Below, piece by piece: positions 40,918 through 56,520 of a stretch of 64,000 bases of DNA. The notes below the pieces were generated by a model that ran no database searches, was not told the DNA's origin, and was given only the letters and a program-made list of their open reading frames with translations. The position numbers and the translations under genes were made by a program. The stretch's first letter is position 1. Each line of letters starts with the position of its first letter. Where the stretch lies: positions 1 to 64,000 of the forward strand of contig NZ_BOPO01000117.1 of NCBI RefSeq assembly GCF_017312725.1, given 5' to 3'. This DNA comes from Actinocatenispora comari. Its GTDB lineage: Bacteria; Actinomycetota; Actinomycetes; Mycobacteriales; Micromonosporaceae.

Positions 40918-41009
40918 CGGGTGACCGCTGGCGTCGGTGCAGGCACCCGGTCGTCGCGCGGACGATCCGGGGTGGGGCGGTGAGCGGCTGCACCGCCCGG
41001 TTCGTGTTG

Positions 41010-41082
41010 TGCCCCCGGCAGGATTCGAACCTGCGACACCCGCTTTAGGAGAGCGGTGCTCTATCCCCTGAGCTACGAGGGC
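41010..41082 (-). tRNA. tRNA-Arg (CCU)
   Basis: A full cloverleaf is present: acceptor GCCCTCG/CGGGGGC, D arm GCTC/GAGC, anticodon stem CCGCT/AGCGG with loop CTCCTAA (anticodon CCT), T arm GCAGG/CCTGC with TTCGAAT. CCA is not encoded. Its 5' half, up to the end of the anticodon loop, is the att core of the integrated element. It starts 43 nt beyond the int stop, in the same direction as int. Confidence 0.95.
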
Positions 41083-41093
41083 AACGACCGGCG
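41045..41093. repeat. attL core (in tRNA-Arg)
   Basis: This 49-bp sequence, starting TTAGGAGAGCGGTGCTC and ending GCAACGACCGGCG, is identical to 55063-55111. It runs from the anticodon loop of tRNA-Arg to 11 nt upstream of the tRNA 5' end. Confidence 0.93.
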
Positions 41094-41125: not shown

Positions 41126-42358
41126 CTACGCCACATCGGAAGCTCCTGGCTTCTCGCCACGTGCCCCTTCCGTGCCCCTCGGACCCGAGCCGAGCTTACC
41201 GGCCGGGGTGCCGGTGCCTCCATCGACATCCTCGGCCGAGCTGTCCGACGAGGGTCGAGCAGCCTCGGCAAGCTTACCGATCCGGTCGGCTACCTCACGG
41301 TCTCGCCGCTGGGTCGCATGCAGGTAGATCAACGCGGCCCGACTGGTGGAATGGCCCATCCGCTGCATCAGCTCCGCCAGGTTGGCCCCCGCCTCCGCCG
41401 CAAGTGTGCTTCCGGTGTGGCGGAGATCGTGAAAATGGATCTCGGGAACGCCGACTTCCACGCGAGCTTTGGCCCAGAGTCGGTGGAAGTTGTTGCGCTT
41501 CGGACGTCCACCGCGCGGACCGATGAACAGCAACGCGTCTTGCTCCTCGCCGACGAACTCCGTCAAGTGCTCCTCAATTTCGCCTGCCAAGAACTCGGGA
41601 AAGGTCAATGTGCGGAAGCCCTTCAAGGTCTTGGGGTCACCGTCCTGGATCGGTCCTTTGTCACCCTGAATCCCGTTCCGCGCGACGCGCAGCGTGCGGG
41701 TTTCGAGGTTCACCCGCTCCCGCCGGAGCCCAACCAGTTCACCCCAGCGCAGAGTGACGAACGTGGACAGAAGAACCATGAGCCGGTACCGCTTCGGCAG
41801 AGCGTCAGCGAGTGCGAAGACCTGATCGAGCGTGATCACCTCGCGCTCTGGAGTCTCGACCGTTCCCGCGCCTTTGATGTTGCAGGGGTTCCGTTTGATC
41901 ATGTGGTCTTCGTTGACCGCAGTGTTCAGAGCGGCCCGCAGCAGCCGGTACGCACCAGCCCGACGCTGCTCGCCAACGCCAGCCTCCCGCATCCGCCGCA
42001 GCCAACTCCTGACGCGGGCTGACGTCAGCTCGTTGACATCGACGTCAGCCAGGTACGGCGTGATCTGGTTGCGCAGGTACGCGCCGTAGTTCTCGCGTGT
42101 GCGCAGCCGGATATCCCGGTCCGCAATCCATGTCTCGACGTAGTCCACGACCGGGACGCATCCAGAGTCCGGGTCGATCCAGTCGCCATGGTTAATCTCG
42201 TGTTCCTTGTCGGTCAGCCACTTTTCTGCAGCCTTCCGAGTCTCGAACGTCTTCGGTGCGGTCCGCAGCAGACCATCCGGGCCGGGGTAACGAGCCTGCC
42301 ACCGACCGGACGGCAACTGACGGACCCGACCGAAGTGCCGCCGTCGTCGTGCCATCAC
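41126..42358 (-). CDS. int: Tyrosine recombinase (integrase)
   Basis: The 410-aa site-specific recombinase has an N-terminal AP2-like/SAM-like arm-binding part (about 10-160) and a catalytic domain with Arg204 (TLRWGEL), His310 and Arg313 (HDLRHTG), His336 (MGHST) and the nucleophile Tyr345 (LIYLHAT). It joins attP to the tRNA-Arg attB. The GTG start overlaps the xis stop (GTGA), the usual coupled xis-int order of AICEs. The last 50 residues are low-complexity and outside the fold. Confidence 0.95.
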   Translation of the reverse strand: MMARRRRHFGRVRQLPSGRWQARYPGPDGLLRTAPKTFETRKAAEKWLTDKEHEINHGDWIDPDSGCVPVVDYVETWIADRDIRLRTRENYGAYLRNQITPYLADVDVNELTSARVRSWLRRMREAGVGEQRRAGAYRLLRAALNTAVNEDHMIKRNPCNIKGAGTVETPEREVITLDQVFALADALPKRYRLMVLLSTFVTLRWGELVGLRRERVNLETRTLRVARNGIQGDKGPIQDGDPKTLKGFRTLTFPEFLAGEIEEHLTEFVGEEQDALLFIGPRGGRPKRNNFHRLWAKARVEVGVPEIHFHDLRHTGSTLAAEAGANLAELMQRMGHSTSRAALIYLHATQRRDREVADRIGKLAEAARPSSDSSAEDVDGGTGTPAGKLGSGPRGTEGARGEKPGASDVA

Positions 42359-42611: not shown

Positions 42612-42627
42612 TGACACGCACGTGTCA
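42612..42627. promoter_or_regulatory. Palindrome copy 1 (upstream of xis)
   Basis: TGACACGCACGTGTCA has perfect 7-bp arms around a CA centre. It lies between the rep stop region and xis, where an xis-int promoter is expected. It is one of four copies in the element. Confidence 0.75.
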
Positions 42628-44157
42628 GCCTCCGTTGTGCATCTCGTGGATGAGGTCTTCACGTCCGGCGTGTTGGCGGGAGCGGGCGAGGGCGGCGGAG
42701 GTGTTGGCGAGTTTGGCGTCGCCGAGGGTGTGCCAGCCGGTGCCGACGTAGGTCAGGTTGCCGACGATGAGGGTGGTTTCGCCGTCGGTGTTGGTGGCGG
42801 GTTCGGTGTCGACGGTGCGGCGCCAGATGACGCGCTTGTTGCGCAGGATGCGGAAGGTGACGGAGTAGCCGCGGGATTGGGTGAGGGGGTGGCCGCCGCT
42901 TCCGAGCATGTGTGCCCAGCGGCGTAGCTTGCGCCATTCGGGGACGCGGCCGAGCCACCATGCGGCCCAGACGAGGCGTTCGGTGTGGGTGCCTTCGTCG
43001 TTGGCGTAGAGGTCGATGGTGTCGGAGTTGAGTCGGCGGGAGACGTGCCCGGTTGCCTCGGTGGATTTGGTGAGGTACTTGGCGAGGTAGCCGGCGACGA
43101 GCCGGTCGGTGATTTCGGCGTCGCCGCGGAGCTGGATGGGCCGGATGTCGAGTTGTTTGCCCCAGCCGATGCGCCAGCCGTCGGGCTGGTCGGGGTGCGC
43201 TTCGGTGGTGAAGGAGGTTCCGGCGACCGCGTAGGTGATGGCGTCGGTGAGGTCGATGACGTCGAGTTCGGCGGGCGGGTCGATGGTGTCGCCGGTGTCG
43301 GGGTCGATGCCGTCGAGGCGGAACACGGCGTGGTAGTGGATCACGCCGCGGGCTTGGTATTCGGCGACCTTGCAGCAGTTCGGCTTCACAGCGATCGTAC
43401 CGAGACGCCGGGTGAGGCGGTCGAAGTAGCGGCGCAGCGCGACGCCGATGGTGCGGCGCCACAGTTCCCCGGCGGTGTGGTTCCACACGACCTGGCCGTC
43501 GTGGTCGTAGCAGTCCAGGCACAGGGGTGTGCCGTTGATGTGCTCGCCCTTGGCGTGGATGCGAGAGCATCGCAGGTCGACGCCGTGGGGGCACAGGTCA
43601 GGGGTGCGGCGGGGCCGGCAGGGTGCGGGTTGCCCGGTGGCGGTGTGTCGGGGGCCGTGGACCAGGCCGAAGGAGGGGGCGGTGAAGGTGACGAACACGG
43701 CCGGCCGGTGTGACACGTGCGTGTCGATGCCGTTGCCGCCGATGACACCGGCGCGGATGAGTTGGAACGCGTCGCGGCGGTAGATCTCGGCGCAGTGTGG
43801 GCAGACTGTTTCGCGCCGGTTGCCGCAGGACTTGTAGATCACCCCGTCGGGCATGTCCTGCGTCGAGGTGGTGCCCAGCAGCGCGCCGGTGGCGGCGTCG
43901 ATGCGGTCGATGGAGCCGGCGAGTCGGATCGGGTTGGAGCAGCCGGCGGCGGAGCGGACGTGGGCGAGCCAGTCGAACACGTCGGAGGACGCGGCCCGTT
44001 CGATGGCGGTACGGGTCGCGGAGCCGCGCGAGCCGGCACCGAGGGCATCGTCCAGGGAGCGGGAGACAGTGAACGCGTGGGTCAGCTCGGCGGATACACC
44101 CGTACCCGGGGCCACCGTGGCGGCTCCGGGTGCGAGTGTGCCTGTCGAGGCAACCAT
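42625..44157 (-). CDS. Rolling-circle replication initiator (RepSA-like)
   Basis: The 510-aa AICE initiator has the HUH motif in GVIHYHAVFRLDG, the Tyr-containing motif in GYLAKYLTKS, and zinc-ligand cysteines at CGNRRETVCPHC and CLDC. It would nick the double-strand origin and drive rolling-circle replication after excision. Its ATG overlaps the previous stop by 1 nt (TGATG). A copy of the element's palindrome lies inside the gene at 43711-43726, where it encodes DTHVS. Confidence 0.9.
   Translation of the reverse strand: MVASTGTLAPGAATVAPGTGVSAELTHAFTVSRSLDDALGAGSRGSATRTAIERAASSDVFDWLAHVRSAAGCSNPIRLAGSIDRIDAATGALLGTTSTQDMPDGVIYKSCGNRRETVCPHCAEIYRRDAFQLIRAGVIGGNGIDTHVSHRPAVFVTFTAPSFGLVHGPRHTATGQPAPCRPRRTPDLCPHGVDLRCSRIHAKGEHINGTPLCLDCYDHDGQVVWNHTAGELWRRTIGVALRRYFDRLTRRLGTIAVKPNCCKVAEYQARGVIHYHAVFRLDGIDPDTGDTIDPPAELDVIDLTDAITYAVAGTSFTTEAHPDQPDGWRIGWGKQLDIRPIQLRGDAEITDRLVAGYLAKYLTKSTEATGHVSRRLNSDTIDLYANDEGTHTERLVWAAWWLGRVPEWRKLRRWAHMLGSGGHPLTQSRGYSVTFRILRNKRVIWRRTVDTEPATNTDGETTLIVGNLTYVGTGWHTLGDAKLANTSAALARSRQHAGREDLIHEMHNGG
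43711..43726. promoter_or_regulatory. Palindrome copy 2 (inside rep)
   Basis: TGACACGTGCGTGTCG differs at one end base from the other copies. It lies inside the coding sequence at about codon 145 of the initiator. Confidence 0.6.
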
Positions 44158-45164: not shown

Positions 45165-45566
45165 TCAGACTCCCGCGCAGTCGAGGCATTCGCCGAATCG
45201 GCGAGGGATGTAGTAGCCCTTCACCTGCCCGCAGGTTCGGCAGGTGCGGCGGGCCAGCAGTGCCAGGCCGACCGCGACGAGCTGTCGCGGGGTGGCGGTG
45301 CGCTTCTCTTTGGCGAGATCGTCGCGGTACAGATAGGCGACGCGCTGTTGCTTGCGGTGGCGCCAGAGGATCTGTGCGGCGATCGGCTGTCCACCGGGCC
45401 GAAGTCCCTTGGCCCGCAACTGTCGTACGGTCGAGTAGCCCGCCGGGGCCATCAGCCACGGGTAGGTCGGCATGCTGTAGTGGACGCCGTCAGGGTCGTA
45501 GAACTCGATGTACATGTGCAGCCGTTCCCGGCAGTCATCGAGCACGGCGCTACGGGCACCCATCAC
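45165..45566 (-). CDS. RRQRL-motif zinc-binding protein
   Basis: The 133-aa protein has the core STVRQLRAKGLRPGGQPIAA, the LWRH..R.AYLYR segment typical of the family, and a C-terminal zinc cluster CRTCGQ...CLDC. This actinobacterial mobile-element family has no known function. Its ATG overlaps the stop of the upstream gene (ATGA), and that gene carries a second copy of the same domain. Confidence 0.82.
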   Translation of the reverse strand: MMGARSAVLDDCRERLHMYIEFYDPDGVHYSMPTYPWLMAPAGYSTVRQLRAKGLRPGGQPIAAQILWRHRKQQRVAYLYRDDLAKEKRTATPRQLVAVGLALLARRTCRTCGQVKGYYIPRRFGECLDCAGV

Positions 45567-46570
45567 CGGTCACCCCGTTTCGCGGCACGAGCGGCGTTGG
45601 CCCGGGCCAGCGCGTCGAGCTGTGCCGGGGTGGCCTGCCGCTTGGTCTTCGCGGCATCAAGGCGGTAGAGGTTGGCGAACCGGCGGCCGTGCCGCCAGGT
45701 CAGACGAGCGGCGATCGGCTGCCCACCGGGACGAAGCCCAGAAGCGGCGAGCTGCCGCAAGGTGGCGAGCCCGTTCGGGACGGTGCCCCACGGGAACGTG
45801 GGCATCCCGTCATGGGCGGCGCCGGTCGGGTCCGGCGTAAGGGTCGGGTCCGGTTGCCCGTCGGGCATGAAGGCGTGCCCGCACACGTCGCACCGGATCA
45901 GCCCGGCTTCCGCGATGGTCGGAGCTACTTTGATCTTTCGCGGGCACAGGCATTCGAGCGGGATGGGGTTGTTGGAATTGTCCCGCTTCTTCTTCGGCTT
46001 GGCCTCGATCGGGTGCCGAAACAGCGTGATCGCGCCATCGAGCGCGGCGATGGTGGACTGATACCGGCCGGTCGTCAGGTCGGTGATGGTTGTGCGGAAG
46101 CCGATCTTGTCGTCGGGTTCGACCGCGAGACCCAGCTCGGTCGCGAGCTGTGCGAAGTGCTTGTTGTGCCAGCGGCCCTGACGCGAGGTGTCCTTCACCT
46201 GACGCGCGTCGGCCAGAGCGTGTGCTGCCTCGTGCAGCAGCGTGCCGAGGACTTCGGCGGCGGTGCGGGACAGTCCCTCGCCGGCGACCAGGACCTCAGC
46301 GAACTCGGCGTCGCTGTGGCGGTGCCGCCAGCGCAGCGATCCGTAGTGCCCGTGCTCGGCCGGGCGTCCGGTCCCGGTGCCGGGGCCGATGATGACCACC
46401 GCGTGGTCGATGTCGGGGTGCTGTGCCCGGATCGCTGCCCAGGCGTCTTCCAGCACCGCCGCCAGACGCGAAATCGCGTACGCGCCGACGGCAGGGTCGG
46501 TTGACACGTGCGTGTCAACAGCGGTCGTGCCCTCGCCAGCGACGAGGGACAGGGCAGGGGTAGCCTTCAT
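45563..46570 (-). CDS. SprT-like metallopeptidase fused to an RRQRL domain
   Basis: The 335-aa protein has two parts. Residues about 20-240 contain LLHEAAHALADAR (HExxH zincin) with a downstream W-HNKHF histidine and CxCP...CDVC zinc-ribbon cysteines, like SprT/SprT-like proteases. Residues about 250-335 repeat the RRQRL-type domain of the next gene (LATLRQLAASGLRPGGQPIA). The ATG at 46570 is chosen over a GTG at 46579 because AAGGAG lies 8 nt before it. Codons 18-23 contain a copy of the palindrome (DTHVS). The function in transfer is unknown. Confidence 0.8.
   Translation of the reverse strand: MKATPALSLVAGEGTTAVDTHVSTDPAVGAYAISRLAAVLEDAWAAIRAQHPDIDHAVVIIGPGTGTGRPAEHGHYGSLRWRHRHSDAEFAEVLVAGEGLSRTAAEVLGTLLHEAAHALADARQVKDTSRQGRWHNKHFAQLATELGLAVEPDDKIGFRTTITDLTTGRYQSTIAALDGAITLFRHPIEAKPKKKRDNSNNPIPLECLCPRKIKVAPTIAEAGLIRCDVCGHAFMPDGQPDPTLTPDPTGAAHDGMPTFPWGTVPNGLATLRQLAASGLRPGGQPIAARLTWRHGRRFANLYRLDAAKTKRQATPAQLDALARANAARAAKRGDR
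46502..46517. promoter_or_regulatory. Palindrome copy 3 (start of SprT-like gene)
   Basis: TGACACGTGCGTGTCA is a perfect copy, lying 53-68 nt inside the 5' end of the SprT-like gene. Confidence 0.65.
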
Positions 46571-46653
46571 GGCAACCACTCCTTGAACAGGGGAAACGGT
46601 TCACCCGGGGCCGGTCGGTCTTTGGCGAGAGAGGCCGGCCCTCGGGCGTTTCT

Positions 46654-46935
46654 TCACTTGCAGATGCACTCCAACTCGCCGCAGTCGCCGCAGCGACCGC
46701 ACTCGGGGCAGTAGTTCGACCCGGTGCAGGATTCGCAGTTGCACCACGGGTCATCGGCGTTTTCGCCTTCGCAGTCCCAGTTGCCGCCGCCGTCGTGGCA
46801 GCCTTCGCAGGACGGTGGCGTGACTCGCCATACCGGGCCAGATGGGTTGCGCTGTCCGCTGGACAGCTCGGGATCGGGCGCGGCGCTCACCGACTCGAAC
46901 GCCGTCTTGAGCAGGTCGGGACGGATCTCGTTCAC
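46654..46935 (-). CDS. Small cysteine-rich protein
   Basis: The 93-aa protein carries 13 cysteines in its C-terminal half (CEGCHDGG, CNCESC, CPECGRCGDCGELECIC), suggesting two or more zinc sites. The GTG start overlaps the FtsK-like stop (GTGA), so it is coupled to the translocase. I do not recognise a named family. Confidence 0.75.
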   Translation of the reverse strand: MNEIRPDLLKTAFESVSAAPDPELSSGQRNPSGPVWRVTPPSCEGCHDGGGNWDCEGENADDPWCNCESCTGSNYCPECGRCGDCGELECICK

Positions 46936-47807
46936 GCTGCCTCCTTGATCGAGACGACCTCGGCGATCTGCGCCGGGTCGGGAATGGTGTCGGTGCGGCG
47001 GGTCCAAGCCGCGTAGTCCACGACGGCTTCGATCTGCCCGTCAGACATCCACGGCGTCTTCATCAGCACCGGGACACCGCCCTCGGCAAGCAGGTAGCCC
47101 ACGCCGGACTGTTCGGGGGCGATGGCGGAGGCGTCGAAACCCTGCGACGCCCAGCCCCGACCAAGCACCAGATCGGAGGAATCCGCGGTGGTGCACCGGC
47201 CCGCGTGCCGGTAGCCGAAGATGTCCCGCAGCGACGCGGGGATGATGTCCACCCCGGAGGGCCGCTGGGTTGCGGCAACCACGATCACGCCGCAAGCACG
47301 GCCCCGCGCGACCAGATCACGCAGCAGAGTCGAGAACTCTTCCTGATCCTGTTTGGCCCCGACCGTGGCGGAGAAGTACGCCAGTTCGTCGACCACGGCG
47401 ACGATCACCGACAGATGGTCGGAGGCGACGATCTTGCGGCGGCCTTGGGCGCGCAGCCAGGCGTAGCGGTTGTCCAGCACCCGCTGCAGCCGCTTCAGGG
47501 TGACGATGGCGTCGGCCAGGTCGGGGCCGACGAACTTGTCGGCCACGTCTTCGTACTGGCCCAGCTCCACCCACTTGCCGTCGAACAGCACCAGGCGTGC
47601 ATCCGCGCAGAGGGCGGCGTGGCAGCAGATCGCGTTGATCAGGGTCGACTTCCCGGAACCGGGTTCCCCGCCGGAGAGCAGGTTTTTGTAGATGAGCCGG
47701 ACATACACCGGCCGGCCGTACTCGTCACGGCCCAGATAGATCGGGTCGAACATTGACAGTCCACAGCCGACCGGGACACTGCGCCCGGCCACGGTGACAG
47801 CGCCCAT
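46932..47807 (-). CDS. FtsK/SpoIIIE-type DNA translocase (conjugal transfer)
   Basis: The 291-aa ATPase has Walker A GEPGSGKST (47-55), Walker B VVDELAYF and the conserved AATQRPS motif. It is the TraB/TraSA-type pump that moves double-stranded DNA between hyphae. It lacks its own membrane helices; the adjacent upstream gene encodes a membrane protein that probably supplies the anchor. The ATG at 47807 follows AAGGAGGAG. Confidence 0.92.
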   Translation of the reverse strand: MGAVTVAGRSVPVGCGLSMFDPIYLGRDEYGRPVYVRLIYKNLLSGGEPGSGKSTLINAICCHAALCADARLVLFDGKWVELGQYEDVADKFVGPDLADAIVTLKRLQRVLDNRYAWLRAQGRRKIVASDHLSVIVAVVDELAYFSATVGAKQDQEEFSTLLRDLVARGRACGVIVVAATQRPSGVDIIPASLRDIFGYRHAGRCTTADSSDLVLGRGWASQGFDASAIAPEQSGVGYLLAEGGVPVLMKTPWMSDGQIEAVVDYAAWTRRTDTIPDPAQIAEVVSIKEAA

Positions 47808-47900
47808 GACACACTCCTCCTTCAGGAGCCACACAATGGTTGGTAGGGAAGGGATGCGGACCGTTGCGGCAGTCCGCACCCCGGACGATCCGGCGAGGGA

Positions 47901-49802: not shown

Positions 49803-50582
49803 ATGGCCAACGAGAGACTTCGCGTCGCCATCGCGAAGGCAGGACTGACACCAGACGAACTCGCGTACCGCGTGAAGGTCGACCCCAAGACGGTCGAACG
49901 TTGGATCACCAAGGACCGGGTGCCTCGTCCCAGGCAGCGAGTGGAGACGGCCCGCCTGCTCGAAGCCAAGGAGCTTTTCCTTTGGCCCCAGGTGATGGAC
50001 AGCCCTCAGGCTCGGAGCGCACGTGAAGCGGAAGTCGTCAGGATCTACTACCACCGAGGCGAGTTGCCGGCCAGCTACTGGTACGAACTGATCCAATCAG
50101 CCAAGGAGAACATAGACATCCTCGTGTTCTCTGGCCTCTTCCTGCCTGACGGGCATGCCGACCTCGGCAAGATGCTCGCAGCCAAGGCGAGTGAAGGTGT
50201 GCAGATCCGCTACTTGCTCGGGGATCCAGAGGGCGAGGCGATCGCGCTGCGGGGCGAAGAGGAGCAGATCGGCGACCACCTGGCGGCGCGAAGCGACCTT
50301 GCACGGGGCTACCTGCGCGCGGCATTCGGCGTTGAGGGTGTCCACATCCACCATCACGACACCACGCTCTACAACTCGATCTACCGCTTCGATCGTGATG
50401 CGTTCGTCAACGCCCACGCCTACGGCGCACCAGCTGGCGACTCTCCGATCCTCCACCTTCGTCAAGTCGAGGGCGGCCGTCTGTTCGACCACTACATGGA
50501 CAGCTTCGAGCGAGTGTGGGAAAGCTCCGAGCCAGCGCCGCCCCCGGTGAGCCGTCAGCGCAAGAGGAAGGCGAAGAACTGA
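49803..50582 (+). CDS. XRE-type regulator with PLD-like effector domain
   Basis: The 259-aa protein has an N-terminal Cro/C1-type helix-turn-helix ([31 protein letters not shown]) and a C-terminal phospholipase-D-like domain (about 95-240: [43 protein letters not shown]) that lacks a clear catalytic HKD, suggesting ligand sensing. Such regulators recur in actinomycete AICEs next to NUDIX and HD genes. It is the first gene of a rightward unit diverging from the transfer operon, so it is a candidate switch for transfer. Confidence 0.82.
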
Positions 50583-50583
50583 G

Positions 50584-51060
50584 ATGGCGCGACGCATCGA
50601 CTACCTCAACGACCCGAACGCACCCGCGGCCAACAGCATCGTCCCGTCAGCGAACGTCGTCGTGACCAACGAACTCAACGAGGTACTGATGATCCGCCGC
50701 ACCGACAACGGCAACTGGGCACTACCAGGGGGCGGCATGGACCCGGGCGAGACCTTGACCGAGACCGCCGTACGGGAGGTGGAGGAAGAGACCGGAATCC
50801 GTTGCGAGGTAACGGGACTGGTTGGCGTCTACACAAACCCGAACCACGTCATCCTCTACACGAGCAACGGCGAAGCCCGCCAGGAGTTCTCGTTGGTGTA
50901 CACCGCCCGTGCCGTCTCCGGACACCCAACACCGAGCGACGAGACCTCAGAGGTTCGATGGGTGCCCGAAGGTGACCTCATCACGTTACCGATGCACGAG
51001 TCCATGCGGCAGCGCATCGGCCGCTACCTTGAGCACCAGGCGATGCCCTACCTAGGCTGA
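50584..51060 (+). CDS. NUDIX hydrolase
   Basis: The 158-aa protein has a full Nudix box G-G-G-M-D-P-G-E-T followed by REVEEETGI. It hydrolyses a nucleoside diphosphate-linked substrate that cannot be named from sequence. It starts 1 nt after the XRE gene stop, so the two are co-translated. The stop overlaps the convergent HD gene by 9 nt. Confidence 0.92.
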
Positions 51061-51618
51061 CGCAGTGCGCGCCCTGGCGAGACGTTGCTCCGTCCGACGG
51101 ACGGCGCCCACGATCTCAGGCCGAGCACGCCGGATGAACCGGGTGACCACATGATCCGGGCCGTACCGCTGGTCAATCTCGTCTAGGCGTTCCGTGACTT
51201 CGAATGGCTGGCCGTCCGGCCCCGTGGTCATATCGCTGTACCACAGCGCATCCGTCGTCGCCGTACTCTCGTTGGCGAACTCCGCAGCGAGTACATCGGC
51301 AAGCCCGCGCTCATCCGCCTCGATCAACGCACAAGAGTGATTGGCGACCAGGGCAGTCACTCGCGGATCGAACTCATGCCGCCGGAGCCACCGGGCGCCG
51401 TCGAGCGGATGAAAGCCCGTGTCGACCAGTCCGCGAACGTAGCCGATGTCGTGCAGCCAGGCAGCAGCGACGAGCGGGTCGCGATCAGTTGGCTCTACGG
51501 CCGAGGAAGCCTCACCAGCAGTACGAGCTACCGCTTGGACATGCCGCCAGCGACGCGGAAGCTCCACACTCATGAGCCGCTCAGCGATCGCTCGCGCCTC
51601 CTCCACTAGCCCAGCCAT
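51052..51618 (-). CDS. HD-domain phosphohydrolase
   Basis: The 188-aa protein has the HD pattern: His in [10 protein letters not shown], then WLHDIGY (HD pair) and a downstream Asp. Relatives act on nucleotides. ATG 51618 is preferred because the upstream extension is Arg/Ser-rich. XRE-PLD, NUDIX and HD together form a recurring cassette in AICEs. Confidence 0.88.
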
Positions 51619-51654
51619 GCTGACGACGCTACGCGACCAGGACACGGGGCGCAT

Positions 51655-52198
51655 CAGGCCGTCCGGTCGGTGAGAACTTTCTGTACGGGTTCAAGGCGGC
51701 CCTGACGGGCCGCGCGCGCCGCCGTTCGGGCCGCGTTCCGGCCGCTCTGCTGTCGCCCGCGGCCGGAACGCTCCAGGCCCGCGGCAGGCGCGCACACCAA
51801 CAGGGCCGCCACCCTCGCAAGTTCACACCGAGAGTGACGGCCTTGTCGCAACAGTCATGGGCTACTGACCGCGCCGGTCACCGCCGACGCCGGATGGCGG
51901 GGTACGGCGGGCGGGTCGACCGGGCGGCGGGTTGTCAGCTGGTGCCGGTTATGGCGCCTCCGGCGGGGGCGCTCAGGCTCCGGGATGGCCGGGGACCGCT
52001 ACCGGCCGCCGGGTTGCTGGGCGGGCACTGCCGCCATCCCGTCACCGACGCCCCAGGCACAGCCGAGCAGACCGCCGCCGGGGCCGCCAGCATCCGTGAG
52101 CAATGTGCAGACCGCGGAGGGTGGCGGCCCCGGCGGCGGCCCGCTCCCCAGAGGGTGGGACGACGGTGACGGGATGGCTAGGGAATGATGAATGGCGC
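51655..52198. other. Non-coding stretch inside the AICE
   Basis: No credible gene is seen in these 540 nt. The sequence is GC-rich with a perfect 10-bp hairpin GTTCCGGCCG/CGGCCGGAAC (51735-51744 with 51760-51769). It separates the HD gene from the lower-GC defence genes and could hold an origin or transfer site, but no known motif is recognised. Confidence 0.5.
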
Positions 52199-53071
52199 CT
52201 ATGCCGCGTTACTGATTCCGACTCGTGACTTCAGCTCGCTTGTCCAGGCTTCGGAATGCACTGGAGAACAGAACGCGACATGCAAAATGTGTTCGAGATG
52301 CTCTGGCTTCGTGACAGACGAGGGCGCTGTTCCAATTACACGCTTGAGCAGAGCGGCGAGCGCGGAAAGGAGATCTCTTCCTCGAAAATATGGCCTAGAA
52401 CCACGTGGGCAAGTTGGAGGATTCTCGATGGTTTCAGCTCCCTGCGCGAAGTCAACAAGAGTGTCTACAGGTGGTGGTGAGCCAGAACTCTTTGCGACTA
52501 ACGCCATGCAGTATGGACGAATTTTTAGTGCGCACGAGTCAGGGTCGATTTTTGCGCACACGTCAACCGCATCAAAGTTCAATCCCCATTGATGGTAAGC
52601 ATTGGCGGCACGCAGCCGCGCAAGCGGCTCTACTGCATGATACAGCGCCTTCTTTAGCTGAACTAGTCCTCCAAAGCGGTGCAGCTTATCCGCGCTAGCG
52701 ACTTCTGATACCAAGACTTTAAAGGCCGATGAGACGATCGCCATGGCTTCGAGATCGGCGTTCTCGTAAGGGAATATCGGAAGGCCCTCGGATTCGGCTG
52801 TCGCGATCTTATGATCGAAGTCGCGATCTAGGATTCCGAAAAGCCGCAGTGATGCGACGTTGAGTGCTTCGACTTCCCTTACCACGTTTAGGACATTTGG
52901 GCGACCGCCTACTGGAAAAACCGCACATTGATCTAATAGGACTTCCTCCAGAAACCGCGAATCGGAAGGTCCTTCCACCACAAGTACCGGGCGCGGGTCT
53001 GCTTGGTGATGCAGTCGAATTCGAGTAGCTGCTTCATCATAATTTTTGATTGAGTGTGGATCTGTCACCAT
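52199..53071 (-). CDS. ariB: DUF4435 TOPRIM-like protein, PARIS effector AriB-like
   Basis: The 290-aa DUF4435 protein has VLVVEGPSDSRFL (Glu33 of the TOPRIM fold), LFGILDRDFD (acidic DxDxD, 82-86) and YENADLEAM (Glu108). In PARIS the DUF4435 protein AriB is a TOPRIM nuclease released when the ATPase AriA senses a phage protein; it then blocks translation by cutting tRNA. The ATG at 53071 overlaps the stop of the ATPase gene by 7 nt. GC content is clearly lower than in the rest of the window, a sign of separate origin. The family link is strong; activity is inferred. Confidence 0.82.
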   Translation of the reverse strand: MVTDPHSIKNYDEAATRIRLHHQADPRPVLVVEGPSDSRFLEEVLLDQCAVFPVGGRPNVLNVVREVEALNVASLRLFGILDRDFDHKIATAESEGLPIFPYENADLEAMAIVSSAFKVLVSEVASADKLHRFGGLVQLKKALYHAVEPLARLRAANAYHQWGLNFDAVDVCAKIDPDSCALKIRPYCMALVAKSSGSPPPVDTLVDFAQGAETIENPPTCPRGSRPYFRGRDLLSALAALLKRVIGTAPSSVTKPEHLEHILHVAFCSPVHSEAWTSELKSRVGISNAA

Positions 53072-54381
53072 TGTACGGCCAGCTCCTCGACGATGTCCCA
53101 TCTGCCGTTGATGATTCCGGCCGAGTGGGTAGCGAGGATAATCTGAAGCCCGCAGATCGTTGCTACGTCGGTGATGTCGCTAATAAATGAATGTTTCCAG
53201 GCAGCGTGCAGGGATATTTCAGGTTCGTCAATCAGAACAACAGTGCCCGAACTGGTCGAAAACAACAGCATCGTAAACAGCGCCAATAGATGCTGCTCTC
53301 CAGAGGACAGGACGTTTACCGGTATCGGCTGTCCATCGAGGTTTGAATGGAAGACGAGACGGCCACTGCTGTCCAACAGGAGAGTCTTGCCGATGAATTT
53401 ATCGTTCACGATCTGTTGCAGGGTCTTAAGTCGCTCGTGAACCGGAAGGAGAGGAGTAATCTTCTTCTTCCAGTCTTCAATAAATGCCGACAGGACTCGT
53501 CGCTCAGTGGTGTCAAGCTCGCGGGATGGCAGTTCCATGTCCCAGCTTGCAGTAGACAAGCCACTTTTGAAGAGCTCCGCATTTTGCTCGGCGAGTTCAT
53601 CGTATTCTTCTATGAGAACTGACGAAGTGCGGGCACGTCCACCGGCAAATACTCTCGCTGCGAAACTTTCATCAGCTCGTTGGGATGCTGCGAGCGACAT
53701 CCTTCTTGCCTCGGTAACTTGTATCCGTACCTGATCGATATATTCATCGATTCTGGAATGATATCGCTGTGGATGACGCAGATCAGGATTCTGGAGTCCG
53801 GTGTCGAGTCGCTTGGTATCGATGAAGACAGAGCTAAGCTGTCCAAACTCGCGCCACCACGCTGGCCTCGGCGCCGTTTTTCGGCGTCTGGGTCGCGTGC
53901 CGCGAGGCTCTACGGCTGTGTTTATGTCATAGCGAATGAAATCCTCGACATAGTCTTCCGGAATAATTTCATTTGTGCGAGTATTCAGAAATACGCCATC
54001 CTCGATCTCTTGCCAGTAGTATGGGAGAGGCCGCCCCTCCGGCTTGATGCTCAGTTCGCCGTAGATTCGGCCGCGCGGCCCCTCGCCTCTCAGGGATACC
54101 TTCCTTTTTGTGTGGTCAGGAGAACTGATTGCGCGAATCAGTTTCCTCGTGTCTAACTCGATGACTATTTCTTTGAACGGCGTACGGAGGAGCGATTCTG
54201 GCCGATTGCCAAGGATGCCATGTATTGTGCGCAGGATATGGGTCTTTCCGACGCCATTTGGTCCTGCTATGATGCTAACGGGGCCATGATCACCGAAATT
54301 TAGATGATGCTCTGCATTTTCGTATAATAGGCCATTGGCGTCAAAGGACTTGATTTTCGGCAATGTGCCCTCCCTGGCCAT
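53065..54381 (-). CDS. ariA: AAA (ABC-like) ATPase, PARIS sensor AriA-like
   Basis: The 438-aa Rad50/OLD-like ATPase has Walker A GPNGVGKT (40-47), ABC signature SSGEQ (359-363), Walker B VLIDEPEISLH (383-392) and H-loop LATHS (His419), with a helical insertion of about 170 residues between. Length and gene order with the downstream DUF4435 gene match AriA of PARIS. A TTG at 54363 has a better ribosome site (GGGAGGG) than the ATG at 54381, so the true start may be six codons later. The only other close family is OLD/Gabija-type ATPases, which lack a DUF4435 partner. Confidence 0.85.
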   Translation of the reverse strand: MAREGTLPKIKSFDANGLLYENAEHHLNFGDHGPVSIIAGPNGVGKTHILRTIHGILGNRPESLLRTPFKEIVIELDTRKLIRAISSPDHTKRKVSLRGEGPRGRIYGELSIKPEGRPLPYYWQEIEDGVFLNTRTNEIIPEDYVEDFIRYDINTAVEPRGTRPRRRKTAPRPAWWREFGQLSSVFIDTKRLDTGLQNPDLRHPQRYHSRIDEYIDQVRIQVTEARRMSLAASQRADESFAARVFAGGRARTSSVLIEEYDELAEQNAELFKSGLSTASWDMELPSRELDTTERRVLSAFIEDWKKKITPLLPVHERLKTLQQIVNDKFIGKTLLLDSSGRLVFHSNLDGQPIPVNVLSSGEQHLLALFTMLLFSTSSGTVVLIDEPEISLHAAWKHSFISDITDVATICGLQIILATHSAGIINGRWDIVEELAVQW

Positions 54382-55062
54382 CTTGGATGTCGTTCATGTT
54401 TGGGTATAGTTGCGACTCAACTAGCCACATCGGATCTTAGTCCGCTTCGTGCCTGTTGGTGTGCCCACACAGGAAGACCGTGGGAATCGTGTGTCATGTT
54501 TCAGTCATCAGTCGTACGCACCAGAAGTATCGGAACGAGCCAGGCTTACGGTGCGATGGGCTTACTCGTATGTCTATATGGCCTCAAACCGTGCAACTGA
54601 GAGGTCCGTCGCAACTGCCCTGCCTGACGACCCATCCTCATGATCTGCCTGATGCGGGTGCTCCGCGTGCCCGTTGAGATGTGGAAGGCGTTCTTCCGCG
54701 GTGAGGCGTGGGAGGACAGCCAAGTCGGGGTGGTGCGGACTCGATGCTGATCGATCAGTGGGGTCCTTGACCATCTTGAGAGAGCAGCGCCCAACCTATG
54801 CCGATGGCTGCGCGAGACTGACGCCGATGCGACGTCAACGGACGCCAACGCCAACGACCGCGAGGCAAGGCCAGGGCCGGCTGAGGACCCTTGACCGCCC
54901 GGCCTGCTCCCGTCATGCACACGTTCCCGAGAGTCCGCTCCCGTGCCCCGTGCGTGCCCGTTGGAGCGCGGAACGAGGGGGAACCACGGTAACTGGCGGG
55001 AGAAAACCGAGGTCAGCACCGCCGGGCATAGGTGCAGATGGATCGGCAAGCCGTTGGCCGTC
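54382..55062. other. Non-coding right end of the AICE
   Basis: No convincing gene is seen in these 680 nt. The left part is AT-richer and must contain the promoter of the ATPase gene (CTATACC near 54405 on the minus strand). The right part returns to higher GC before attR. Confidence 0.5.
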
Positions 55063-55111
55063 TTAGGAGAGCGGTGCTCTATCCCCTGAGCTACGAGGGC
55101 AACGACCGGCG
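55063..55111. repeat. attR core (5' half of tRNA-Arg)
   Basis: This sequence is identical to 41045-41093. It holds only the 5' half of the tRNA and is not a gene. Beyond it lies the original upstream region of the tRNA. Confidence 0.93.
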
Positions 55112-55338
55112 CTCGGGCCGGCTGCCGGGCCTTCGGCCACCGTGGAGGCTACCGGATTCCCACCCCGCGCCCGCGGGCCCCAGCCGAAGCTTACCGGTCC
55201 GGTACCGGCGGGTCACAGCGAGATCCCGGCGTTCCGGACCGTTCAGGCCGCGACGCCGGTGCCGGAGACGGGGGAGGCTCCGGTACCGGCGTCGCGTGGG
55301 GGTGGGGGTAAGGCTTGTCTGCGCCGGCCTGGCCGGCT

Positions 55339-56307
55339 TCAGCCGACCCGGCCGTAGCCGTCCGGCGGCATCATGTCGACGCTGGCCTTCTGCACCGGCT
55401 CGCCGTAGGTCGGCGCGTGGATCACCTGGCCGCCGCCGATGTAGATCGCGACGTGCTCGTTCCCGCTGTAGAACACCAGGTCGCCCGCCTGCAGCTGGTC
55501 GCGGCTGATCCGGTGGGTCTGGCTGTACTGGGTGTACGAGCTGTGCGCGAGCGAGTAGCCGGCGGCGTTCCAGGCCATCATGGTCAGGCCGGAGCAGTCG
55601 AACGCGTCGGGCCCCGCGGAACCCATGTTGTACGGCTTGCCGAGCTGCGCCCACGCGTAGTCGACCGCCTTGCCGGCGGAGCCGGGCAGGTTCGGCGCCG
55701 GGCCGTAGTCGACGTTGGTGTCGTAGTTGGTGGGCGATCCGTATGCCTGGGTGCGCAGGTCGCGCAGCTTCTGCACGTCCTTGTCCAGCGACGTCTTCTG
55801 GCTGGCGAGCTTCTTCTTCGCCTGGGTCTGCTTGCCGATCGCGGTGTCCAGCGCCGCCTTCTGCTTGTCCAGCGCCGCCTTGGCCTTGCTGTACTCGGCG
55901 ATCTGCTTGCTCTGGCTGCGCGCCAACTGGTCGAGCAGCGAGAGCGAGTCGAGCAGGGTACTGGCGGAGCCGTCGGACAGGATCGCGTTGACCGCGCCCG
56001 GCTTGCCGCCGCGGTAGGCGGCCGCCGCCATCTTGCCGACCGACTGCTCGGCCGCGTCGACCTTCTTCTGCAGCGGCTTGAGCTTCTTGTTGACCGCCTT
56101 TTCCTTCTTCTTGCTGGCGGCCAGCTGGTCCTGGACCTTGTCGTACTCCTGGACGGCCTTGTCGAACTGCTTGGACTTGGCGTCGATCTGCTTGGTCAGC
56201 TCGGCCTCGGACGGTGTGGCGTGCGCCGGGGTCCCGAGCAGCAACAGGGCCATCGCGGTGAGCGCGGCCAGCAGCAGCAGACCGAAGGCCCGCAGCGGTC
56301 GCGGCAT
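55339..56307 (-). CDS. Secreted NlpC/P60 peptidoglycan endopeptidase with coiled coil
   Basis: The 322-aa RipA-like cell-wall hydrolase has a signal peptide (1-30, ending GTPAHA), a long coiled coil (about 35-200, rich in Lys/Gln/Ala) and an NlpC/P60 domain with the catalytic Cys in DAFDCSGLT, His in NEHVAIYIG and a polar third residue His in QVIHAPTYG. It cuts stem peptides. The start is ATG 56307, or a GTG at 56352 that would add 15 basic residues. It is preceded by a c-di-AMP riboswitch. Confidence 0.92.
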   Translation of the reverse strand: MPRPLRAFGLLLLAALTAMALLLLGTPAHATPSEAELTKQIDAKSKQFDKAVQEYDKVQDQLAASKKKEKAVNKKLKPLQKKVDAAEQSVGKMAAAAYRGGKPGAVNAILSDGSASTLLDSLSLLDQLARSQSKQIAEYSKAKAALDKQKAALDTAIGKQTQAKKKLASQKTSLDKDVQKLRDLRTQAYGSPTNYDTNVDYGPAPNLPGSAGKAVDYAWAQLGKPYNMGSAGPDAFDCSGLTMMAWNAAGYSLAHSSYTQYSQTHRISRDQLQAGDLVFYSGNEHVAIYIGGGQVIHAPTYGEPVQKASVDMMPPDGYGRVG

Positions 56308-56349
56308 GACAGCGGAGGTGGGCACCGGCAGCCGGCTCCTTCTTCCTCG

Positions 56350-56520
56350 CACCGCCTACCGGGTTAGCTGACGGGTTCGGGCGGGGAAGAAGTGCGCCCT
56401 ACCACGACCCGGAGGTCGTGGATTCACCCCAGGGAGGTGGGTCCCCGGCTCGCCGGCAAGCGCCAGGGGAGGCGGCTCACGCGGCAACTCGGCGGTGTCG
56501 CCCGGTGCCGCCCACGGGCA
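56350..56520 (-). promoter_or_regulatory. c-di-AMP riboswitch (ydaO/yuaA leader)
   Basis: On the minus strand the leader contains the conserved strings of the actinobacterial ydaO-type aptamer in the right order: CGCCGAGTTGCCGC, GGGGACCCACC, CTGGGGTGAATCC, GGTAGGGC and CGAACCCGTCAGCTAACC, then GGTAGGC. It ends about 45 nt before the ATG of the NlpC/P60 gene, a usual target: high c-di-AMP turns the wall hydrolase off. The 5' limit is approximate. Confidence 0.85.

Follow-up and report, generated by a model that had tools for sequence, protein, structure and literature searches.

A PARIS gene pair as probable distal cargo of a RepSA-type integrative and conjugative element in Actinocatenispora comari

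The window analysed here, a 64,000-nucleotide stretch of Actinocatenispora comari (contig NZ_BOPO01000117.1, positions 1 to 64,000), carries an ariA-ariB gene pair that is a fresh member of PARIS, an already known defence system. The evidence makes it very probable that this two-gene PARIS is cargo, at the end away from the integrase gene (int), of a complete-looking RepSA-type actinomycete integrative and conjugative element (AICE) in a soil actinomycete. An earlier note, made from the sequence alone, had described such a pair and interpreted it as a PARIS-type anti-phage system carried by an AICE; its observation proved correct, and its interpretation is supported for the most part. The newer part, and the one worth following, is the cargo pattern: PARIS lies int-distally on AICEs, does so recurrently, and moves between backbones.

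The ariA-ariB pair and its assignment to PARIS

The two genes of the pair are as follows.

53065..54381, minus strand: ariA, a 438-residue ABC-type ATPase with an ATG start, presumed sensor
52199..53071, minus strand: ariB, a 290-residue DUF4435 TOPRIM protein read from an internal ATG, presumed tRNase effector

Together they run from 54381 to 52199 on the minus strand and overlap by 7 nt (ATGGTGA) as in an operon, and a GAGGAG stretch lies 11 nt ahead of the ariB ATG; with an upstream ATG at 53101, the ariB open reading frame (ORF) would encode 300 residues. AriA contains a Walker A motif (GPNGVGKT), an ABC signature (LSSGEQ), a Walker B motif that includes the catalytic Glu (VVLIDEPE) and the H-motif ATHS, so the frames, the full set of nucleotide motifs and the overlap described in the earlier note are all in place. 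A chance reading frame is excluded, because all 14 of the other loci examined for the pair show its two genes in this order. The G+C content is 52.3% in the PARIS DNA, 66.9% in the rest of the element up to PARIS, and 74-75% in the chromosome. Promoter and terminator scans around ariAB yielded nothing useful.

The published detection rule for PARIS calls for AAA_15 at 32 bits or more, or AAA_21 at 27 bits or more, plus DUF4435 at 27 bits or more (PMC9122126). The pair passes this rule with Pfam scores of 52.5 bits for AAA_15, 84.1 for AAA_21 and 30.7 for DUF4435, on adjacent and overlapping genes. The DUF4435 score also exceeds the Pfam cut-off of 27, and the TOPRIM-like acidic residues attributed to this protein are present as the signature E33-G-x-x-D37 plus D82-x-D84. 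The profile comparison proposed in the earlier note returned AriA and AriB as the best PADLOC models: AriA is the top model for the ATPase at 5.6e-26, with PtuA the best non-AriA model at 7.8e-21, and AriB is the top model for its partner at 5.7e-9. Among sequences of the Protein Data Bank (PDB), the best matches of AriA are AriA 8ux9/8v45, at 6.4e-11 when searched alone and at 1.3e-22 with a five-sequence profile that covers both ends of the ATPase.

Structure prediction points the same way. A model of AriB built from an 18-sequence alignment (m7103c640b2b4) reached a predicted local distance difference test (pLDDT) of 89.1 and a predicted template modelling score (pTM) of 0.84, with an alternation of strands and helices at residues 29-32, 35-45, 50-53, 57-70, 77-81, 88-94 and 99-101. 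Searched with Foldseek against 350,542 PDB chains, this model has as its two best matches the PARIS AriB chains 8v46_D and 8ux9_A, each at probability 1.00, with GajA, topoisomerase I and DnaG ranking below them. The predicted AriB thus has the fold of the solved AriB, and the comparison with TOPRIM folds that had been suggested as a check places AriB chains first and other TOPRIM proteins lower. Residues E33, G34, D37, D82, D84, D106, R154, G231 and D233 are invariant in all 18 aligned AriB sequences, the window's included. With the 18-sequence profile RNase M5 is matched as well (9.1e-5), in an alignment that spans the E33 and D82-x-D84 motifs; an equal score went to a de novo TIM barrel, which was taken as a repeat artefact. 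The assignment to PARIS made in the earlier note holds by the published rule, PADLOC, the predicted AriB fold and the catalytic residues.

Several results weigh against the PARIS assignment or its extension to function. AriA matches many other defence ATPase models, PtuA at 7.8e-21 among them. Searches of PDB sequences with AriB, by phmmer and with the 5- and 18-sequence profiles, retrieved no AriB chain. The Foldseek E-values of the two best chains are 3.0e-3 (8v46_D) and 5.2e-3 (8ux9_A), none reaching 0.001, with a template modelling (TM) score of about 0.5. The first AriB model, from five sequences, gave no significant Foldseek match and had no AriB chain among its best 50; it was dropped as too poor (pLDDT 67) and replaced by the 18-sequence model. 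At E <= 1e-3, the PADLOC AriB model matches 11 of the 18 aligned AriB sequences and DUF4435 matches 8, and the family models are therefore weak for this branch of AriB. Lysines K60 and K64, which hold tRNA in E. coli AriB, could not be aligned to the window's AriB. Finally, since identity to E. coli AriB is near 10%, the trigger and the set of tRNAs may well differ.

That the pair is another system joining an ATPase to a TOPRIM protein or nuclease (OLD, Gabija, Septu or a retron effector) rather than PARIS seems highly improbable. AriA does match PtuA, GajA, AbiL and ATPase-Toprim models in PADLOC, and GajA is present in the AriB fold search, but AriA models score highest and AriB chains stand above every other TOPRIM protein among the matches listed. 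The partner is a DUF4435 protein with no HNH or helicase family match, and the ATPase and TOPRIM domains occupy separate proteins, which is not so in OLD. GajA combines ATPase and TOPRIM in one protein and has a GajB helicase as neighbour. It and OLD thus resemble the pair in linking an ABC ATPase to TOPRIM, with a weak fold match, but differ in being one polypeptide with weaker model scores; Gabija and OLD were rejected because the ATPase and TOPRIM lie here on separate genes and GajA scores only 4.8e-11 (PADLOC). Among the ORFs listed for 50500-56500 the largest is AriA itself, so there is no helicase-sized partner. The Septu partner is PtuB, an HNH protein, and Septu was rejected on the DUF4435/TOPRIM nature of AriB, for which no HNH match was obtained at E <= 1. 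The earlier note had named two outcomes that would speak against PARIS, namely best matches to OLD or Gabija with DUF4435 missing, and a lack of TOPRIM topology in the second protein; neither family is the best match, DUF4435 is found, and the predicted model has the topology.

The carrier element in tRNA-Arg(CCT)

The pair lies between two perfect direct repeats, in a region with the following features.

41009..41082, minus strand: tRNA-Arg(CCT), the integration target (ARAGORN)
41045..41093, no strand: int-side attachment (att) repeat, 49 bp, perfect direct repeat equal to nt 1-38 of tRNA-Arg(CCT) plus 11 nt upstream
41126..42358, minus strand: tyrosine integrase (Pfam Phage_integrase, 1e-19)
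42625..44157, minus strand: RepSA replication initiator of the pSAM2 type (Pfam RepSA, 9.6e-137)
46932..47879, minus strand: FtsK/SpoIIIE-type DNA translocase, TraB-like (Pfam FtsK_SpoIIIE, 5.8e-15)
49803..50582, plus strand: helix-turn-helix protein, probable AICE regulator (Pfam HTH_31, 0.0022, under the cut-off)
50584..51060, plus strand: Nudix hydrolase of the AICE (Pfam NUDIX, 4.5e-26)
51052..51654, minus strand: HD-domain protein of the AICE (Pfam HD, 6.9e-7)
55063..55111, no strand: distal att repeat, 49 bp, perfect direct repeat whose flank is continuous with the tRNA in two congeners

Counting both repeats, the element measures 14,067 bp. PARIS is the cargo closest to the distal att, from which 682 bp separate it. 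An empty site is found in two congeners, G780 and G781 (loci L021 and L022), where an intact tRNA-Arg(CCT) adjoins the same NlpC/P60 gene and the alignment continues across. In a third congener, G779, a 95% match to the tRNA lies 236 bp from a 63% match to NlpC/P60. The integrase, RepSA and translocase genes, together with the att repeats and the empty sites, identify the element as an AICE in tRNA-Arg(CCT), complete-looking from its sequence. The repeats and the empty sites likewise bear out the claim that the pair is carried on a conjugative element of an actinomycete.

The vast majority of AICEs with tyrosine integrases use the 3' end of a tRNA gene, although exceptions have been published (PMC3218068). 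The usual arrangement does not apply to the present element, whose att identity comprises the 5' half of the tRNA plus 11 nt upstream and which is therefore placed on the 5' side of the tRNA. The intact tRNA-Arg(CCT) is directly downstream of a co-directional int, and the native upstream region lies beside the half tRNA, 14 kb away.

Elsewhere in the element, a weak match to an SprT-like metalloprotease (4e-4, under the Pfam cut-off) is found for the gene at 45563-46579, whose C-terminal part has, by eye, an LRPGGQPIAA motif in common with a neighbouring 133-residue ORF at 45165-45566.

PARIS and other defence genes on related elements

The AriB/DUF4435 scans named 22 genomes, the window's own included, and the context of 15 two-gene pairs was assessed. 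G205, G1075 and G1132, viewed over short flanks only, are outside this assessment, and G657, G853, G880 and G1214 (frames of 354-629 residues) were left out as pairs, as was a second, 560-residue frame in G367. Eight of the 14 actinomycete pairs other than the window's have a RepSA gene no more than 15 kb away, namely those of G1026 (Planosporangium), G1052 (Micromonospora phaseoli), G1133, G1140, G1220, G1277, G1319 and G1374. Random placement with the observed RepSA numbers would give 0.09 such pairs (P about 5e-15), under a null that assumes independence, which related elements do not fully have. G853, G880 and G1214 have no RepSA hit nearby and Streptomyces acidiscabies has none at all; adding these four gives 8/18. 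With the window's pair counted, PARIS is on a RepSA AICE or a remnant of one in 9 of the 15 assessed pairs. M. phaseoli is included with a RepSA remnant only, its 45-bp repeats being at no recognised tRNA, and was excluded from the position figures and Mantel tests below. Of the rest, three pairs are enclosed by direct repeats at a tRNA, with no RepSA nearby (G1235 at tRNA-Ser, G032 at tRNA-Pro and G1243 at tRNA-Arg), an integrase also being present in the first two, and three have neither RepSA nor tRNA repeats (G367, with an integrase 8 kb off; G520, with a 24-bp repeat only; and G1298).

In all eight att-delimited elements at tRNA genes, the window's included, PARIS occupies the half far from int, at a relative position of 0.55-0.90. 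Its distance to the distal att ranges from 272 to 6402 bp, the closest of the several att copies being taken in G1319. Further att copies at tRNA-Arg(CCT) lie outside the PARIS element in G1319 (contig C18, at 584246, 586425 and 590175) and in G1277 (contig C29, at 429005 and 433036), which suggest accreted or nested elements.

Identities of AriA and AriB correlate across the eight elements (Mantel r 0.77, with 135 of 40,320 permutations as high). The corresponding values for AriA are -0.18 against Rep and -0.17 against Int. To illustrate, G1133 and G1319 share 80% identity in Rep and 29% in AriA, and the window and Planosporangium share 49% in AriA and 24-25% in Rep and Int (by BLASTP, 23-29% for Int, Rep and the translocase). 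As AriA divergence tracks neither Rep nor Int, PARIS has moved between AICE backbones; Rep and Int are themselves uncorrelated (r -0.12), and AICEs are thus modular throughout. The suggestion in the earlier note that AICEs spread defence systems gains strength from the eight other PARIS-bearing RepSA elements or remnants and from this incongruence between PARIS and carrier. A tRNA-Arg site is used by six of the eight PARIS AICEs and, among RepSA loci that have a tRNA but no PARIS, by four of 16 (Fisher p 0.03), but we claim no link between PARIS and tRNA-Arg, the counts being small and related.

AriB-like proteins are rare. They were found in at least 5 of 397 genomes of the order, at least 3 of 396 of the phylum (the window's genome being in both sets) and at least 13 of 392 of the genus of G520, of the same class and probably Streptomyces; these are lower bounds, since up to six candidates were scored per genome. 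In the family, DUF4435 occurs in 6 of 354 genomes, the window's own among them. A scan of contigs gave only three close relatives, and further ones were collected by genome searches. The relatives known by name are Micromonospora phaseoli, Planosporangium flavigriseum, Streptomyces acidiscabies and plasmid p3 of Streptomyces angustmyceticus. No relative of the window's AriB was found in a viral collection or in phage records, and one plasmid record matched. On the 27-kb plasmid p3 (L007, NZ_CP104320.1), whose pair is outside the context counts, a close PARIS relative stands beside genes annotated for urate/purine catabolism. In S. acidiscabies (L010:10019-11740), the ariB frame is shortened and apparently interrupted by inserted DNA, and a nearby ORF resembles a transposase by eye.

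Of the 32 RepSA loci without PARIS in the same genomes, the int side was retrieved for 27; the other five are remnants or lie on short contigs. A tRNA is present at the int side in 16 of these 27; 15 of the 16 were fetched on the cargo side (one on a short contig was left out), and att repeats were located in 13. A PADLOC scan covered 19 ORFs located no further than about 4.5 kb from the distal att in 11 of the 13 elements; the ORFs were chosen by length and low G+C content, and the sample therefore leans toward foreign cargo. Three of the 11 elements have PADLOC-recognised defence genes toward the distal end, the first three entries below, and a fourth has a weak match.

L109:7293-10847: IetA-IetS (PADLOC 2e-81 and 2.2e-36)
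L111:13658-14482: CBASS-type cyclase (PADLOC 1.6e-39)
L118:7950-11982: Mrr-nSTAND3 protein (PDC-S73) and a SEFIR/TIR-like protein (PADLOC 5.4e-120 and 2.6e-9)
L119:4913-8002: HD-CE/GHKL-ATPase protein, with a weak restriction-enzyme match only (9.7e-7)

The scanned ORFs of the seven remaining elements gave no PADLOC match at E <= 1e-5. Five distal ORFs of low G+C content (0.52-0.57), at L108:7618-8607, L113:9430-10257, L116:8392-10038, L112:13072-14742 and L122:6697-8619, have DUF6414, DUF3800, an AAA_16/ORC-like domain or no Pfam family, and are candidates for defence genes of new kinds.

The IetAS, CBASS-type and STAND/TIR results support a distal defence spot, from a small, picked sample with no matched comparison set drawn from the remainder of each element. 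On balance we lean toward seeing the int-distal end of RepSA AICEs as a general site for the loading of defence systems in actinomycetes, a conjugative counterpart of the P2/P4 hotspots, into which PARIS types have been loaded repeatedly on unrelated backbones and which in other AICEs holds IetAS, CBASS-type and STAND/TIR genes. If so, AICEs would be a main, mostly uncounted carrier of actinomycete immunity.

Mechanism, known systems and meaning

By analogy with E. coli, we infer that an oligomer of the ABC ATPase AriA would hold the TOPRIM nuclease AriB inactive until a phage protein engages AriA and AriB is freed. The freed nuclease may then cleave the anticodon stem of particular host tRNAs, and translation would stop before the phage matures, in an abortive infection. 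In E. coli, an AriA hexamer sequesters AriB and releases it on trigger, and AriB cuts tRNA between positions 40 and 41 (PMC12409363); the triggers there are DNA-mimic anti-restriction proteins such as Ocr (PMC9122126).

Three other accounts of what the pair does were weighed against phage defence. PARIS on an AICE might mainly guard the element against competing mobile DNA (other AICEs or plasmids) that brings anti-restriction proteins, phages being secondary, which we regard as unlikely. In its favour, plasmids, too, carry anti-restriction proteins, and five loci of the window's genome, the window's element included, match RepSA. In E. coli, PARIS does sense an anti-restriction protein (PMC9122126). 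Against it, to our knowledge no trigger has been described in actinomycetes. It is quite unlikely that ariAB serves mainly to stabilise the AICE by addiction, as a toxin-antitoxin module in which AriB is toxic on loss of AriA. The pair is on a mobile element, PDB entries name AriA 'antitoxin', and toxin-antitoxin systems of some AICEs have been described as likely addiction systems (PMC9513070), but in E. coli the loss of either gene is non-toxic and abolishes defence, and the authors take the toxin-antitoxin explanation as excluded (PMC9122126). Very little probability attaches to a decaying, unexpressed remnant: AICE cargo is often pseudogenised (PMC9513070), and the ariB of the S. acidiscabies relative is apparently interrupted, but the frames, catalytic residues and overlap in the window are intact, and all 14 of the other AriB proteins compared keep E33, D37, D82, D84 and D106.

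Read as PARIS, the pair resembles that of E. coli (8ux9, 8v45-8v49) in its ABC ATPase and DUF4435 TOPRIM protein, its catalytic acidic residues and its predicted AriB fold. It differs in sequence, with 10-12% identity over the Foldseek alignments, in the length of AriB (290 residues versus chains of 305-306) and in its carrier, an AICE versus a P4 satellite. The earlier note had held PARIS to be known mainly from proteobacterial satellites and prophages, which is incorrect according to Rousset et al. RNase M5 is, unlike AriB, a ribosomal RNA maturation enzyme and is not known to have an ATPase partner. Its likeness to AriB lies in the TOPRIM residues and the profile match noted above, and it is the TOPRIM nuclease cited by Belukhina et al.

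The carrier is like other pSAM2-type RepSA AICEs in its tyrosine integrase, RepSA, FtsK/SpoIIIE translocase, Nudix gene, tRNA att repeats and size of about 14 kb, and unlike most tyrosine-integrase AICEs in having its att identity at the 5' half of the tRNA gene and not the 3' end. Like the P2/P4 hotspots of E. coli, AICEs offer a cargo region of a mobile element with varied defence systems, PARIS included (PMC9122126). They differ in being conjugative and plasmid-like and neither phages nor satellites, and among PARIS-less elements the comparison covers 19 ORFs in 11 of them. Restriction-modification and AIPR abortive-infection genes have already been reported as AICE cargo (PMC9513070), and diDNase genes have been reported in AICEs and near defence genes (PMC11706625). 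A survey of the actinobacterial antiviral arsenal analysed plasmids and prophages only as carriers (PMC10482375), so that AICEs were left out. PARIS on an AICE is not described in the titles and abstract openings of the papers listed by the literature searches, which mostly lay outside subscription journals.

If the pattern holds for other systems, AICEs would be a major route of immunity exchange in Streptomyces and its relatives, and their int-distal ends would be short, well-bounded places in which to seek new systems. The divergent actinomycete AriB would in turn allow a test of tRNA-target conservation across PARIS, a question raised by Belukhina et al.

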